A stretch of 64,000 nt of DNA from a virus: IMG/VR virus record IMGVR_UViG_3300035670_000078, positions 37,256 to 101,255 of that record, one strand, 5' to 3'. A program made the translations under genes and the position numbers. The notes below the pieces were generated by a model. The model worked only from the letters and a program-made list of their open reading frames with translations, was not told the DNA's origin and did not search any database. This document shows, piece after piece, positions 6,294-26,879 of the stretch (position 1 is the first letter of the stretch; each line of letters opens with the position of its first letter).

Positions 6294-7673
6294 GTGGACT
6301 CGTATAACTTTCATCCGCAATTCGAGCAGGCGGTTCTTTATTACCTTTGCTCGGAAAAGAAGTTCTTTCATCTGTACCACAAGTACATCCAAGCGGATCT
6401 ACTTCAGACAGAGTCGGCAAAGCTGGCCCTATCGGCCGCCAAGTCCATCTACAAGGACATCTCTGATGCCCCCGGCAGCACCACGATGGTTCTGCAGCGC
6501 GTCAAGAGTAAGGTCATCAGCGGCGACGTCACCGTTGACGCATACAATGAACTGTCGTTCTACCTCGACGACGTGCCGAACATTTCGGACTGGCGGGCGG
6601 TGGGGAGCGAACTGACCCCGACCTTGAAGGAATCGCTCCGTCACGCCGCCGTTCTCAAAGCCATCGAGTCCCGTCAGGGCAAGAAGTCGATGGCCGATAC
6701 TGCTGCTTACATGCAGGAGATCGAGAACATCGGTCAGTACGTCGAGGGCAAAGCGCCCCTGTCATTCGATGACATCGACGGCCGTGACGCCTTTTCCGCC
6801 CTCGAGGAAATGATCGACATCGGCCGTATGCGGACAGGTATCGACGAACTCGACCTGACCCTGGGCGGCGGACCGCCGTGCGGCACGCTCTCGGTATTCG
6901 TTGCTCGCCCCGGCGGCGGTAAGAGCATGTGCCTGTCGCAAATCGGCGCCCATGCGTTTGCGGCTGAGGGCAAGCAGGTAGCGCACGTCACCATTTCCGA
7001 GGTACCCGCCCATATCATCATGGCGCGTGTGCTCGCCCCGATTCTCGGCACCAAGATTTCGGACATCACGCGCGAGCCGCCTGAGGCTCGCAGGCTGTGG
7101 CAGGCTTATAAGCAAAGGGCAGACGCGAACCTCGGCGGCTACAAGACCTTCGAGTTCACGTCAAAGACGCCGGTCAGCCAGATCCGCGCTGAGGTGATGG
7201 GCTTCTACCAGAAGAACTTCAAGTCCAAGCCGGACGTCATCATCTTCGATTATCTCGGCCTGTCTTCGTCGCTCAAGGCACCGAAGGGCGCCAATTCCTA
7301 CACGCAGGGCGAATATATCACCGGCGAGCTGCTCGACTGGGCGCAGTCGGAAAAGGTCTGGATCTTCACCGCCGCGCAGAGCCAGCGCATGAAGGCCAAG
7401 GGTGGCAAGGCGATTATCGGCCTCGATGATATCGCCGACAGCTACCATATCGTCCGCATCGCCGACATCGTCATCACGATCAACACGGACGAGGACGAGC
7501 CCGGAGTTTTTCAGGGCAGCTTCCATTTCGCGAAGAACCGCTTCGGACCGTCGGGCGGAACGACCAGCCGAAATCCCGTCAACTGGGATACCGGCCTCGT
7601 CGCGCCGTCGTCGTTCTTCCAAGCCAAGGCCACCCGTTACTGGGCAGACCAGCAGCCCTACTTCGTGAACTAG
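6294..7673 (+). CDS. DnaB-like replicative DNA helicase
   Basis: 459 residues. RecA-fold core with Walker A ARPGGGKS (204-211), a glutamate-bearing strand HVTISE (231-236) and Walker B DVIIFDYLGL (D319). The N-terminal 150 residues are helical, as in DnaB and T4 gp41. It should form the hexameric ring unwinding DNA at the fork. GTG start at 6294, chosen for CAGGAGA seven bases upstream. It is directly followed by the primase gene one base after its stop, so helicase and primase are made together. Confidence 0.88.
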   Translation: MDSYNFHPQFEQAVLYYLCSEKKFFHLYHKYIQADLLQTESAKLALSAAKSIYKDISDAPGSTTMVLQRVKSKVISGDVTVDAYNELSFYLDDVPNISDWRAVGSELTPTLKESLRHAAVLKAIESRQGKKSMADTAAYMQEIENIGQYVEGKAPLSFDDIDGRDAFSALEEMIDIGRMRTGIDELDLTLGGGPPCGTLSVFVARPGGGKSMCLSQIGAHAFAAEGKQVAHVTISEVPAHIIMARVLAPILGTKISDITREPPEARRLWQAYKQRADANLGGYKTFEFTSKTPVSQIRAEVMGFYQKNFKSKPDVIIFDYLGLSSSLKAPKGANSYTQGEYITGELLDWAQSEKVWIFTAAQSQRMKAKGGKAIIGLDDIADSYHIVRIADIVITINTDEDEPGVFQGSFHFAKNRFGPSGGTTSRNPVNWDTGLVAPSSFFQAKATRYWADQQPYFVN

Positions 7674-7674
7674 C

Positions 7675-8568
7675 ATGTCGGGATATATTCGCGGCTCCTC
7701 CGAGGTACTCGAGGCGATCGCGGACATACGCCCCAGCCCATCAGGCTGGATTCGGGCGGTGTGTCCCTATTGCCTCGCGTCTGGACACGAAACCAACAAG
7801 AAGAAGCTCTCGGTCAGCCTTGAGACCGGGTTCTTTCAGTGCTGGCGCGCTGACTGCGGGGCGAAGGGATTTATCGAGGTCGATGAGAGGGCGCTGAAGA
7901 AATACAAGAAGGCACCGACCGAGGAGAAGCCGGACGACGGGCGCGTTCCTCTGCCTGCTGACTTCACCCCGCTGAACACGTTCAGCGATGCGATCTCGCT
8001 CAAGAAGTTCTACGCCTACCTCAAGACACGGTTCGTAAAGGACCAGACGATCGTCGAGGCAAACCTCGGGGCGTGCCTCGTTGGCGAGTACGCCAACAAG
8101 GTCGTCATCCCCGTCTATCATCGGGGAGAGGTGGCTGGGTTCACCTCACGATCAGTGGTGGGCAAGGATTTTATGAACCCACCGAAGTTCAAGCGAACGC
8201 ACTACATGCTCAACGGCGACGCCCTGCTCGAGGAGAGCACCGAGCCCGTGGTCATCGTAGAGGGGCCGTTTGACTGTCTGCGCCACTGGCCCTATGCCGT
8301 CGCCTGCTTTGGCAAGCCGACACACCACCATGAGAAATTGATCCGCGAGGCCAAGCGACCTGTGATAATTGGTCTCGACGCCGACGCCCAGATGGAGGGC
8401 TGGGGCCTCGCTATGAAGCTCGAACTTGAAGGCCGTGACGTCAGGTTCCTGAAAATTCGGCCGGGTACCGATCCGGGCAAAACCCCACACGAAGAATTCA
8501 TGGAATGGGCCTCGACAGCGCCGAGAGCTTCGTCTACTAATCCATCAACGTCTAGCATCCTGAAGTAA
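7675..8568 (+). CDS. DnaG-like DNA primase
   Basis: 297 residues. N-terminal zinc-binding domain with C30, C33, C56 and C61 (CPYC and CWRADC), then a Toprim domain with IVEGPFD (E196, D200) and GLDADAQ (D235, D237). It synthesises RNA primers on the lagging strand. Shorter than bacterial DnaG, with no C-terminal helicase-binding domain, which is usual for phage primases encoded next to their helicase. A perfect hairpin spans the 3' end, with the TAA stop inside its loop. Confidence 0.88.
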   Translation: MSGYIRGSSEVLEAIADIRPSPSGWIRAVCPYCLASGHETNKKKLSVSLETGFFQCWRADCGAKGFIEVDERALKKYKKAPTEEKPDDGRVPLPADFTPLNTFSDAISLKKFYAYLKTRFVKDQTIVEANLGACLVGEYANKVVIPVYHRGEVAGFTSRSVVGKDFMNPPKFKRTHYMLNGDALLEESTEPVVIVEGPFDCLRHWPYAVACFGKPTHHHEKLIREAKRPVIIGLDADAQMEGWGLAMKLELEGRDVRFLKIRPGTDPGKTPHEEFMEWASTAPRASSTNPSTSSILK

Positions 8569-9837: not shown

Positions 9838-12834
9838 ATGCGCACGGTCAACCTCTACCCGAACCACGTAGACACAGCGCCCATTCTTCAGGATGGCGCT
9901 TGGCCTCTCAACGAGCCTAAGAAATCAATCTTCAAGGTCACCGCCAAGGGGGGTGAGAAGCTGGTAGGGTTGATCGGCGACGGTTGCACCATGTGCAGCC
10001 GCTCGAAGAAGCGCATGGAAGACACGATCCAGAAGCCGCGCCTGCTCCGGGGTAAGAAGCCGGAGCAGGGCCGCGTTCTGTGTGTCTTCAGCTACCTGAC
10101 CTACGGCGCATCGGTCGACAGCATGGTCAACCTCATCAGGAGCCAAGGCTTCGAGGGTGACCTGCTGCTCGACCTCTGCATCCGTTGCGGGCCGGGTAAC
10201 GTCACAGACAGTCAGATAAATCAGTGCGGAAACTACTTGAGGATGTCCTACAAGCAGTTCAAGCCTGACAGGATTCTTTGCTTCGGAACGACCGCCGCCA
10301 AGACCGTCCTCGGTATGGCGGTGCCGTCGTGGACGAACCGTTGGTGCTGGACGACCATCCCCGCTGAGGCGGTCACGGACGACGATGGCGTCGTCTCCGA
10401 TAAGCGCGTGCCGGTCGTGTCCTTGATGGACCCCGCCAACTTCAATAAATCAAAGGTGCACCGGGAAATCATAAGCGCCGAGGTCGATTGGGCGCTCACC
10501 TCCAATTTCCCGGACCACCGCCCTGTAGGAATCGCCTACATCCTCGAGACCGAGGATGACCTGCCTCTTCTCGAGCAGTGGGTCGAGCGTGTCAGGCAGA
10601 CCACAGGATGGATTGCCTACGACGTCGAGACGAACGGGGTCATGCACAACCCCGACTTTTCCATCATCATGTGCTCGGTCGCGGCCACCTCTATCCCGCA
10701 CGTCATTCTGTGGGACCAAGAGTCTCTCAAGAACAAGGCGCTGCTCGACCGGCTCACCGAACTCCTGACCGACGGAACGATCAGGAAGCGTGGGGCGAAC
10801 GAGAAGTACGACGCCCTCTCGTGGCTCATCTGGAAAGGTATAGAGGTAACGCCCGTCGATGGTGACTGCCGCCTTGAGATGAAGCTCGCCAACGCCGATT
10901 CAAAGGCCGACCTCGAATCCATGGGCTTCTACGTGGGCGTAAATGCGCACAAGTCGGAAGCGAAAGAGTGGATGGAGATGGCCGTGGTGAAGGCCAAGGA
11001 GGACCTCGATCCTGACCTTGAGGGCGTCAACGCCAAGGCCTACGCCTACAAGTACCTGCCTTCCGAGGTTCTCGCCCGATATAACGGGCTGGACACGAAG
11101 GTCACCGCCGCTGTGTGCCAGCACGCACGGTCATCCCTCGGGCCGCTGGAAAATACGCTCCACCGCCTCGTCCTTCCCGCCTCTGAGCTATTTAAGCGGA
11201 TCGAGTACAAGGGGATGATGGTCGACACCAAGGGCATCGAGGCGGCCCGCCTTTTCCTCGAGACCGAGATCGCCAACCTCGCCCCGAGGTTCGCACGGGA
11301 AAACCTCGACCCCGACAAGCCCGAAACGATTCGAGCGTGGCTTGAGCACATGGGGATCGCGTCGCCCATCAAGACCGACACCGGGCTCGCCAGCACGAAC
11401 GCCAAAGCCCTCAAGCTCATCGAGGGCAAGAACGAGCTGATCGCGTCGATCCTGCATCACCGCAAGCTCGCTAAGCTGCTGTCGAGCTACGCCGATACCC
11501 TGCCCGGATATATTCGGGCCGACGGTCGGGTGCACCCGAGCTTCCTTCTGGATGGCGCCCGGTCGGGCCGATTGAGTTGCATCGCAGGCGACTGTGAGAT
11601 GCTTACAGAGCACGGCTGGATTCGCATGGCTGTGCTCAAAGAGCTTCTCGCCTGGAAGAAAGTACATACCGTCACACACCAGAATAAGTGGCAGCAAGTT
11701 GTTGATTGTTGGTCTAACGGTGTCCGGCCTACGGTGGTTGTCAAAACGTCAGGCGGAAAAGAGATCCGCGTTACGCCTGACCACAAGCTCTACACATACG
11801 GCTCCGGTGCAGGGTCGTGGGTAGAAGCTAAGGACGCCAAGGGTAAGCTGGTTCTGGTCAACAACATGGTAAACAAGTCGGCGGCCAGGGTTCCGGCCTA
11901 CGACAAAGTTGTCGATATAGTTGATGCGGGAGAGTGCGAAGTTTTCGACTTCACTGTCGAGAACGATCATTCGGCGTGCATCGAGGGCCTCTTCGCCCAC
12001 AACTGCACGTCGCCCGCCCTGCAGACAATACCTTCACGCGGAGACATGGCTAAGCTGATCAAGAACTGCTTCGTGGCCTCTTCCGGCTACAAGCTGGTCG
12101 CGCTCGACTTCTCCATCCTCGAGATCCGTATCGCAGCGGTCCTGTCAGAGGACCCTGACATGGCCCTCGCCGCGCAGACCGACTTCCACACGGAGACAGC
12201 CAAGTCGCTCGCCCACCTCGCTTGGAACATGACTGCGGAAGCTGTCGAAGCGGAGATCAAGGGCGGCAACAAGAGCAAGCGTGACGTGTCCAAGACCCTC
12301 GGCTTCGCGATCCTTTACGGCGCCGGTGCTCAGAGCATCGCCGAGCGGGTCGGCTGCTCTGAGGCTGCAGCCGACAAGCTCATCAACGGCTTCCTCACGA
12401 AGTACAAGCGGCTGAAGGCGTGGATGCGCGAGCAGGTGGACTTCGCCCGCAAGCACGCTGCGGTGGATATCCCGTGGCTCGATGGTTCCATCGGGCGCCG
12501 CCGCCCTCTGCTTAACATTCACTCAGCTGACAAGGGTGAGCGGGGTAATGCTGAGCGCGCTGCAGTAAATAGCCCTATTCAAAGCCTTGCTAGCGACATC
12601 TGTCTTAGCTCCGCTGTTAAGATTGATGCTTGGTATAGGGCTAATTCTATCCCTGCAAACATAGTTTGCTTGGTTCACGACTCAATTATTTCTGAGGTGC
12701 GCGAAGATTTTGTTGACGAGGTCACCAAAACTAAGGCACACATGATGACGTCCTGGCCGACAGGACTTGTCCCGCTCAAGGTTGAAGCTGAAATAGGCTA
12801 TGCCTGGGGCTCAATGAAGAAGGTGGATGTGTGA
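9838..12834 (+). CDS. Family A DNA polymerase with UDG-like N-terminal domain and intein
   Basis: 998 residues as encoded, 856 after splicing. N-terminal uracil-DNA-glycosylase-like domain with an iron-sulfur cysteine pattern C50-X2-C53, C114-X15-C130 (fusion known from phage SPO1), but no GExPG catalytic motif is visible. 3'-5' exonuclease motifs: YDVETNG (D262, E264), NEKYD (321-325), YNGLD (415-419). Polymerase motif A LDFSILEIR (D757, E762, R764); motif B KTLGFAILYG (K819, F823, Y827); motif C VHDS (D948) in place of the usual HDE. An intein (residues 581-722) splits GRLS from CTSPALQ. G+C falls from 40 of 60 at 12421-12480 to 51 of 120 at 12601-12720. Main replicative polymerase. Confidence 0.93.
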   Translation: MRTVNLYPNHVDTAPILQDGAWPLNEPKKSIFKVTAKGGEKLVGLIGDGCTMCSRSKKRMEDTIQKPRLLRGKKPEQGRVLCVFSYLTYGASVDSMVNLIRSQGFEGDLLLDLCIRCGPGNVTDSQINQCGNYLRMSYKQFKPDRILCFGTTAAKTVLGMAVPSWTNRWCWTTIPAEAVTDDDGVVSDKRVPVVSLMDPANFNKSKVHREIISAEVDWALTSNFPDHRPVGIAYILETEDDLPLLEQWVERVRQTTGWIAYDVETNGVMHNPDFSIIMCSVAATSIPHVILWDQESLKNKALLDRLTELLTDGTIRKRGANEKYDALSWLIWKGIEVTPVDGDCRLEMKLANADSKADLESMGFYVGVNAHKSEAKEWMEMAVVKAKEDLDPDLEGVNAKAYAYKYLPSEVLARYNGLDTKVTAAVCQHARSSLGPLENTLHRLVLPASELFKRIEYKGMMVDTKGIEAARLFLETEIANLAPRFARENLDPDKPETIRAWLEHMGIASPIKTDTGLASTNAKALKLIEGKNELIASILHHRKLAKLLSSYADTLPGYIRADGRVHPSFLLDGARSGRLSCIAGDCEMLTEHGWIRMAVLKELLAWKKVHTVTHQNKWQQVVDCWSNGVRPTVVVKTSGGKEIRVTPDHKLYTYGSGAGSWVEAKDAKGKLVLVNNMVNKSAARVPAYDKVVDIVDAGECEVFDFTVENDHSACIEGLFAHNCTSPALQTIPSRGDMAKLIKNCFVASSGYKLVALDFSILEIRIAAVLSEDPDMALAAQTDFHTETAKSLAHLAWNMTAEAVEAEIKGGNKSKRDVSKTLGFAILYGAGAQSIAERVGCSEAAADKLINGFLTKYKRLKAWMREQVDFARKHAAVDIPWLDGSIGRRRPLLNIHSADKGERGNAERAAVNSPIQSLASDICLSSAVKIDAWYRANSIPANIVCLVHDSIISEVREDFVDEVTKTKAHMMTSWPTGLVPLKVEAEIGYAWGSMKKVDV
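11578..12003 (+). mobile_element. Mini-intein in DNA polymerase, 142 residues
   Basis: An in-frame protein-splicing element starting at a cysteine (CIAGDCEMLTEHGW, block A) and ending FAHN before C+1 (block G). Block B is IRVTPDHKLYT with the TxxH motif; block F is EVFDFTVENDHSACIEG. All residues for class 1 splicing are present: Cys1, block-B Thr and His, penultimate His, terminal Asn and Cys+1. No LAGLIDADG or HNH endonuclease is present, so it cannot home on its own. Splicing would restore GRLS-CTSPALQTIP, the conserved template/primer-contact segment of family A polymerases. Confidence 0.93.
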
Positions 12835-25812: not shown

Positions 25813-25986
25813 TCACCACCTCTTAGACAGGGTCTCTTCGCCCTGGTTGTCAGACTTGAACGTATCCACCTCTGCGGATGCGCGGCCTTTCCTCACGCTG
25901 TTTAGCAGCGCCTTACATTTCGCGCAGCGGTTGTCGTCGCGCGGCTCGTGAATGTGCGGGGTCGTCTCGTCAGTCAGCTGAGCCAT
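25813..25986 (-). CDS. Small CxxC protein, 57 residues
   Basis: A short open frame translates to MAQLTDETTPHIHEP..., with CAKC at residues 21-24 and a His pair at 11-13, so a metal-binding finger is possible. ATG at 25986 has GAGAGG nine bases upstream; the frame overlaps the HNH gene end by 17 bases and stops three bases before the endolysin start region. Strong ribosome site and tight packing support a real gene. Function unknown. Confidence 0.6.
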   Translation of the reverse strand: MAQLTDETTPHIHEPRDDNRCAKCKALLNSVRKGRASAEVDTFKSDNQGEETLSKRW

Positions 25987-26632
25987 TGAAGTACCTCTCT
26001 GGGACGCGGTCGCGCTGCAGGAATCTTTGGTGCCAAACCTGAACGGTCTTCACAGACACGTCAAAGGCGGTGGCGATCTTCTTGACGCTCTCCCCCTTCA
26101 GGAGGAGCAGGTGCATCTGATATCGGTCATCCCACTCGGTCTTGGAAAAGGACGAGTGGTTGGAGATCGACAGGTCCCGCATGTTCTCTTCGTGAGTACC
26201 TGCGTAGAGGTGCTCCGGGTTGATGCACAGGCGGTTGTCGCACTTGTGACAGATCATTAATCCGTCTGGGATCTCACCATGGAAAAGGCGATAGCTGGTC
26301 CGGTGAGCGGTCACCATCTTGTCGCCGTCACGGATGGTGCCGTAGCCGCCGATGTTCAGGCGCCCTTTCCATTCCCAGCAGCCCGAAGGCTTTTCCTCAT
26401 AGAGACGGCAAAGGCGGTGAAACATCGGAACGGCTCGACCGGCGTCAGCGCAGGTGGTCGAGCAGTATTTCCGGTCGCTGGCCGTCTTCTCGGTGAGGAT
26501 GAAGACCTTGCCGCACTCATCGCAGGCGAACTTGACCTTAGGCTTCTTCCGCTTGTCTTTCTTCGGGCGCGGCGCGTCGTCCCATCGCTTGAAGACCTTC
26601 TTTACCTCAACGACCTTTTCAACGATCGGCAT
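25970..26632 (-). CDS. HNH homing endonuclease with zinc finger
   Basis: About 220 residues. N-terminal zinc finger (C37, C40, C57, C61), then an HNH nuclease core: CWEWKG, MICHKCDNRLCINPEHLYAGTHEENMRD (H129, H141, N150). A C-terminal helix-turn-helix IATAFDVSVKTVQVWHQ is the usual DNA-recognition part. ATG at 26632 preferred over 26653 because GGGGAGG precedes it. Free-standing HNH genes of this design spread between phages by cutting at their target; here it lies between the lysis genes. Confidence 0.85.
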   Translation of the reverse strand: MPIVEKVVEVKKVFKRWDDAPRPKKDKRKKPKVKFACDECGKVFILTEKTASDRKYCSTTCADAGRAVPMFHRLCRLYEEKPSGCWEWKGRLNIGGYGTIRDGDKMVTAHRTSYRLFHGEIPDGLMICHKCDNRLCINPEHLYAGTHEENMRDLSISNHSSFSKTEWDDRYQMHLLLLKGESVKKIATAFDVSVKTVQVWHQRFLQRDRVPERYFNGSAD

Positions 26633-26879
26633 GGTCGCCCTCCCCGTGGACATGCCAGTGCGTGCCCGTCCATATACAAAGCTTTCTCGTTCTAGGGTTG
26701 AACCAAAGCTTTCCCTTTGGAACAGGAAGCTCTATCCACGCACGGCCCTCCCATCGAAAAAGGAGGCCTTGGTCCACCCTAAAACAAACACAGCCCGTAT
26801 TCGGGCTGCGAGGGAAAGCGATGGTTTCGCAATCGGCGACTGCGGTTTTGAACGGGCTGCGCACTATTGGTTGAACCAA
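26619..26879 (-). CDS. Small hypothetical protein
   Basis: 86 residues. Trp/Arg-rich with repeated W-G/T patterns (FRWEGRAWIELPVPKGKLWF, IWTGTHWHVHGEGDH), looking like a small beta barrel or hairpin repeat. TTG start at 26879 chosen for CGGAGG upstream; overlaps the HNH gene start by 14 bases. The DNA here is AT-richer than its flanks. Not recognised. Confidence 0.5.
   Translation of the reverse strand: MVQPIVRSPFKTAVADCETIAFPRSPNTGCVCFRVDQGLLFRWEGRAWIELPVPKGKLWFNPRTRKLCIWTGTHWHVHGEGDHADR

Follow-up and report, generated by a model that had tools for sequence, protein, structure and literature searches.

A viral family A DNA polymerase gene interrupted in frame by 142 codons raises the question of what those codons are: a working intein, the relic of a mobile element, or a device that controls the polymerase. 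The gene lies in the window, the 64,000-nucleotide stretch of DNA analysed here, which is part of an IMG/VR viral record of 101,255 bases; the genome may be incomplete. Its neighbours form a replication cluster (DnaB-like helicase, primase, SSB-like, SbcD-like and RuvC-like proteins and a helicase). The open reading frame (ORF) scores 243 bits against Pfam DNA_pol_A, and its N-terminal domain scores 25.8 bits against Pfam UDG (cut-off 24.3). A related polymerase, L103, apparently also has a Cys-rich UDG-like start.

Table 1. Features of the interrupted polymerase gene, its intein and the free-standing HNH gene, in window coordinates
Feature	Coordinates	Strand	Description	Basis
Family A DNA polymerase gene with intein	9838..12834	+	998 aa; 856 aa when spliced	ORF, Pfam, Klenow/Taq matches
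N-extein	9838..11577	+	Residues 1-580, C-terminal ...DGARSGRLS	
Uracil-DNA-glycosylase-like domain	10111..10455	+	Polymerase N-terminus, residues 92-206	Pfam UDG
Mini-intein	11578..12003	+	142 aa, Cys1 to Asn142; polymerase residues 581-722	
Block A nucleophile	11578..11580	+	Cys1	Sequence; invariant in 20 inteins
Block B	11773..11784	+	TPDH (TxxH motif, residues 66-69)	T66 and H69 invariant
Short linker	11788..11937	+	Without endonuclease; relatives have theirs at this place, in frame or in +1	Alignments, closed frames
Block F and C-terminus	11938..12003	+	Ends in His141-Asn142	D124, H141 and N142 invariant; AlphaFold2 strands 107-127, 132-135, 138-141
C-extein	12004..12831	+	First residue Cys+1 (CTSPALQTIP...), polymerase domain	
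Free-standing HNH_3 protein	25970-26653	-	Cys-rich N-terminus, C-terminal HTH	Not obviously kin to intein nucleases

The insert translates to CIAGDCEML...TPDHKLYT...VFDFTVENDHSACIEGLFAHN, with Cys as the next residue, at 12004. Residues C1, T66, H69, D124, H141 and N142 are invariant in an alignment of 20 inteins at the polA site. The insert scored above cut-off against Pfam Intein_splicing (41.7 bits, cut-off 35.8) and against the NCBIfam model TIGR01445 intein_Nterm (37.1 bits, cut-off 24.5), and slightly under it against the C-terminal model TIGR01443 (12.8 bits, cut-off 15.6). The hallmarks of a class 1 intein are present: block A with its Cys1 nucleophile and a TIGR01445 match, the block B TxxH motif as T66-P-D-H69, and block F ending in H141-N142 with Cys at the +1 position, where C, S or T is expected. 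The insertion is in frame, in a conserved polA motif, and intein-free homologues exist (L082 and Klenow). An AlphaFold2 model, calculated from the alignment of the 20 same-site inteins, gave a pLDDT of 93.9 and a pTM of 0.87. Its top PDB matches by Foldseek were all inteins, namely those of Mtu RecA (2in0, E 5e-10, TM 0.80), Npu DnaB (4o1r, 0.78) and Ssp DnaB, and the predicted fold is HINT. Residues 70-120 make up a short linker. No nuclease domain was found in any frame of the element, Intein_splicing being the only Pfam match and the +1 and +2 frames containing stops. The description in the earlier note, of all splicing residues within 142 residues and no homing endonuclease, thus holds to the exact coordinates, and the product sizes that it predicts, 856 and 142 residues, agree with the arithmetic. 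By every feature that could be tested in the sequence, the element is confirmed as a class 1 mini-intein, and it is predicted to splice.

The insertion point, GRLS^CTSPALQTIP, aligns with GRLS^S in the Klenow polymerase of Escherichia coli, which places the intein in the family A segment that the earlier note had named. The break falls directly after the motif with what we take to be the equivalent of Klenow Arg668, contacting the primer terminus. The polymerase of L082 is uninterrupted here and reads GRLSCQNPALQTIP; since it is intein-free, Cys+1 exists without the intein. L082 therefore supplies the empty site that had been proposed for a search among related phages, and it reads straight through, with no sign of the conserved loop that the earlier note had named as evidence against an intein. 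The intein models, the Klenow alignment and L082 rule out a conserved polymerase loop as the identity of the insert.

The polymerase would be translated as a 998-residue precursor, in which Cys1 would attack the Ser580-Cys1 bond and Cys+1 would then receive the N-extein. Cyclisation of Asn142 would follow, with the 856-residue polymerase religated across GRLS-CTSP. Because the intein adjoins the Arg668-equivalent primer contact, the precursor should have no activity until it is spliced.

The same polA position is shared by more than 25 distinct viral inteins, according to pattern and homology scans. A DNA pattern for HNC..P.LQ.IP matched 23 viral stretches, every one a polA intein at the GRLS site, and two later scans found further same-site viral inteins. 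No bacterial genome was a carrier among the pattern and homology matches; seven pattern matches in genome_contigs, considered as bacterial or prophage carriers, were short non-polymerase frames of chance-like character. A search of the phage collection returned no close intein relatives, and scans with P0001 and A1 returned L002 and otherwise weak matches only. L002 is the sister of the window, its polymerase being 85% identical in the C-terminal part and 77% in the N-terminal part. Its same-site intein has 453 residues, and the splicing domains are about 57-60% identical. Inteins with an in-frame HNH domain occupy the site in L012, L019-L021, L024, L030, L031 and L174, and L179 has an in-frame domain judged by eye to be LAGLIDADG-like. 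L182 has an intein without a homing endonuclease (HEN), whose two halves are read in different frames on either side of a G-run around 6285 on the reverse strand, which suggests a sequencing error or a frameshift.

Some further insertions were seen in passing. The polymerases of L100, L029 and L022 have an apparent second insertion further downstream, which in L100 reads as an intein, DY^CLTG...SSN^SQIE, that contains an HNH-like stretch in frame. L022 and L034 have an identical-looking intein in polymerases with different N-terminal parts, which suggests recent recombination. In other genes, a phage head-morphogenesis-like protein (L008, 3441-6893) contains an intein whose in-frame insert resembles an EDHD/DUF559-type nuclease, and a ribonucleotide-reductase-like protein (L003, 3366-6023) also contains an intein.

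The +1 frame of the intein contains a nuclease ORF in 19 distinct relatives, L002 among them (HNH; DUF559-type in two). The +1-frame DUF559 inteins are those of L002, L025 and, as a partial sequence, L180. The DUF559 ORF of L002 has 363 codons (6910-8001; 37.3 bits, cut-off 20.6), and no free-standing phage relatives of it were found. Across it the intein frame has 0 stops where 14-19 are expected, an outcome reached in 0 of 10,000 trials under each of four nulls. HNH_3 ORFs of 178-189 codons were present in the +1 frame of 11 distinct inteins in the first set, and a homology scan added six more distinct inteins with a +1-frame HNH. Over the 19 distinct +1-frame inteins, the intein frame has 0 stops against 142.9 expected from synonymous shuffles. 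These stop-count nulls rule out chance openness of the intein frame across the nuclease ORF. A spurious +1 ORF was likewise rejected, because it matches Pfam HNH_3 or DUF559 and shows codon-position conservation. Read from the same bases, the HNH frame has a mean identity of 0.475 and the intein frame 0.273, the former being higher in 55 of 55 pairs, and the HNH-frame identities at codon positions 1, 2 and 3 are 0.573, 0.634 and 0.451. We therefore regard the HNH frame in these inteins as the protein under selection. Shine-Dalgarno-like 4-mers precede 10 of 13 +1-frame nuclease starts (1.3 expected; P = 5e-9, an approximate value since the rows are related), the starts having been picked by the conserved MS[VI]SK motif and not by the Shine-Dalgarno sequence; in the larger set, they precede 15 of 19 starts. 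When the L023 intein was modelled in frame with AlphaFold2, the splicing domain scored mostly 84-98 per 10-residue block and residues 90-240 scored below 50, as would be expected for a tolerated loop. The window mini-intein has no +1-frame nuclease ORF.

The phage-database sequences most closely related to the +1-frame HNH ORFs are HNH genes located within or next to introns of phage DNA polymerase genes. The first exons of these polA genes stop a few codons past GRLS (GRLSSSNPNL, GRLSGSRP, RLSSSKP). A search of four intron-bearing loci with Rfam at the gathering threshold gave no group I intron match, so the intron class is taken from annotation and the literature. The intron-borne HNH homologues serve as a negative control: the frame that the inteins keep open is interrupted in them by 7-26 stops. 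One member of the same HNH family, located in a group I intron, has been proven to be a nicking homing endonuclease: I-PfoP3I of Pf-WMP3 cuts intron-less polA at a point 4 nt upstream of where the intron inserts (PMC3428280). Counting from the exon end RLSSSKP, this cut falls ~8 nt downstream of the intein site.

A tree of the splicing domains has two clades: the inteins with in-frame HNH (99/97), and the window together with the overprinted lineage, whose nucleases lie in the +1 frame. The window and L002 are sisters (100/99) within the overprinted lineage; the deeper node that joins them to the other overprinted inteins has a support of only 80/84. By descent, then, the window splicing domain groups with the inteins that have overprinted HENs, and since the window and L002 sit inside this lineage, a nuclease was lost or replaced at least once on the way to the window. 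Nuclease type changes 4 times on the intein tree (minimum 3) and 8 times on the polymerase tree (shuffled mean 8.1), the types forming clades on the former and being scattered over the latter. The two trees disagree, and the inteins must therefore have moved between polymerases. We judge the splicing domain to be under purifying selection between the window and L002 (dN 0.26, dS saturated; identity by codon position 0.75/0.80/0.45). The gene lost by the window lineage may have been either DUF559 or HNH. One branch alone parts the window from L002, so L002 may instead have gained its DUF559 gene; moreover, the L002 insert overlaps a strand that is canonical in the window intein, so that a simple deletion from an L002-like ancestor fits poorly.

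The suggestion that the mini-intein is a relic is thus strengthened, as its nearest same-site relatives have nuclease genes, the trees disagree, and its branch lies inside a nuclease-bearing lineage. The window element is very probably a splicing-competent, homing-defunct class 1 survivor of a mobile polA intein lineage. We infer the loss of a nuclease in the window lineage, splicing, and endonuclease activity in the relatives. The ancestors would have been mobile inteins that homed into the exact polA site; with the endonuclease lost, persistence would now depend on vertical inheritance and splicing competence. In most relatives, the endonuclease would be made from the separate +1-frame ORF inside the intein, usually from its own Shine-Dalgarno site, and the intein frame would read through this ORF as a disordered loop.

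A history without loss, in which the window form was always nuclease-free and L002 and others gained their nuclease genes independently, seems unlikely. The occurrence of DUF559 in L002 and L025 as opposed to HNH in relatives points to repeated gains, and the window has kept the canonical strand at the insertion point. However, every other member of the lineage has a nuclease and the branch of the window and L002 lies inside it, so this history, too, calls for one loss or more, or else for a branching at a very early stage. Continued spread by a nuclease acting in trans, from a co-infecting phage or from the phage's own free-standing HNH gene, is very improbable. The available phage genome, possibly incomplete, does contain one free-standing HNH gene (and no DUF559 gene), and a homologous enzyme cuts the polA site in another phage, but the architecture of the window HNH protein differs from that of the site-specific HNH family and nothing ties the protein to polA. 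The earlier claim that the element cannot spread by homing is accordingly right in that it has no nuclease of its own, and too strict in that a nuclease in trans could still mobilize it.

The activity of the element can also be read in other ways. Splicing that is regulated by redox state, metal or temperature, restraining the polymerase until conditions suit the phage, would make sense of the interruption of an essential polymerase segment in the precursor. It could likewise account for the purifying selection on the splicing domain and for the retention in L002 of all five cysteines (1, 6, 44, 120 and 134), four of them non-catalytic. Yet purifying selection would be expected just as much if splicing were simply required, the shared cysteines are weak evidence and a control element was not found, and we consider such a switch quite improbable. 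A degenerate insert, unable to splice and tolerated as a loop, is scarcely credible: the C-terminal model score is marginal, but the catalytic residues are all intact, the HINT fold is predicted with high confidence, the codon-position bias is that of a constrained protein, and the primer-contact segment could hardly accept 142 extra residues.

With the window element taken as a homing-defunct survivor, we lean towards a wider reading. It would be the stripped remnant of a distinct class of mobile inteins with a separate, translated endonuclease gene overprinted in the +1 frame; a polA-cutting HNH family would move back and forth between inteins and group I introns whose sites nearly coincide, and DUF559 would have entered the same arrangement. 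If so, homing and splicing are encoded in two frames of the same DNA and not in two domains of a single protein. Expression of the +1-frame nucleases would mean that an intein can be mobile without a fused endonuclease domain, and that frame-restricted annotation overlooks the nucleases of a whole intein lineage. Alone, the window mini-intein is an ordinary, well-formed splicing element. Its value is that of a control: the one site occurs naturally in a series of states, namely empty, with a mini-intein, and with inteins that carry HNH or LAGLIDADG in frame or HNH or DUF559 in the +1 frame, and group I introns with the same HNH family lie next to it. With such a series, the cycle by which homing elements are gained and lost can be tested directly.

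Several known systems resemble parts of this picture. The 'fractured genes' of Dassa (2009) are reportedly split inteins accompanied by free-standing nuclease genes of the EDxHD type. Their nuclease ORF, like that of the window's relatives, is not fused in frame; in the relatives, however, a continuous intein frame spans it. A 2025 preprint by Gosselin et al. is said to describe actinobacteriophage inteins of 'non-canonical architecture', which may be the same arrangement, so the priority of the +1-frame finding is uncertain. That preprint is cited for overlapping reading frames in actinophages in a paper on the ShiLan domain, an out-of-frame HNH in a phage methylase insertion without splicing motifs or a detectable RBS (PMC11855218). 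Leaving aside the content of the preprint, we found no literature report of an out-of-frame nuclease ORF inside true inteins; the one published precedent for out-of-frame HNH insertions is the ShiLan domain, which is not an intein. In the ShiLan domain/Pacc40 insertion, as in the window's relatives, the nuclease ORF lies in another frame and the host frame stays open (PMC11855218), but ShiLan is thought to be retained in the protein, whereas the elements in polA are true inteins and most have a Shine-Dalgarno sequence before the nuclease start. I-PfoP3I and related intron HNH genes of T7-like and N4-like phages belong to the same HNH family and sit at nearly the same polA site (PMC3428280); they differ in that their carrier is a ribozyme intron and their other frames contain stops. 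The mini-intein itself shares its size, TxxH motif, His-Asn end and HINT fold with the inteins of Spirulina DnaX (7cfv), Npu DnaB (4o1r) and Mtu RecA (2in0), from which it differs in host gene and insertion site, with at most about 27% identity.
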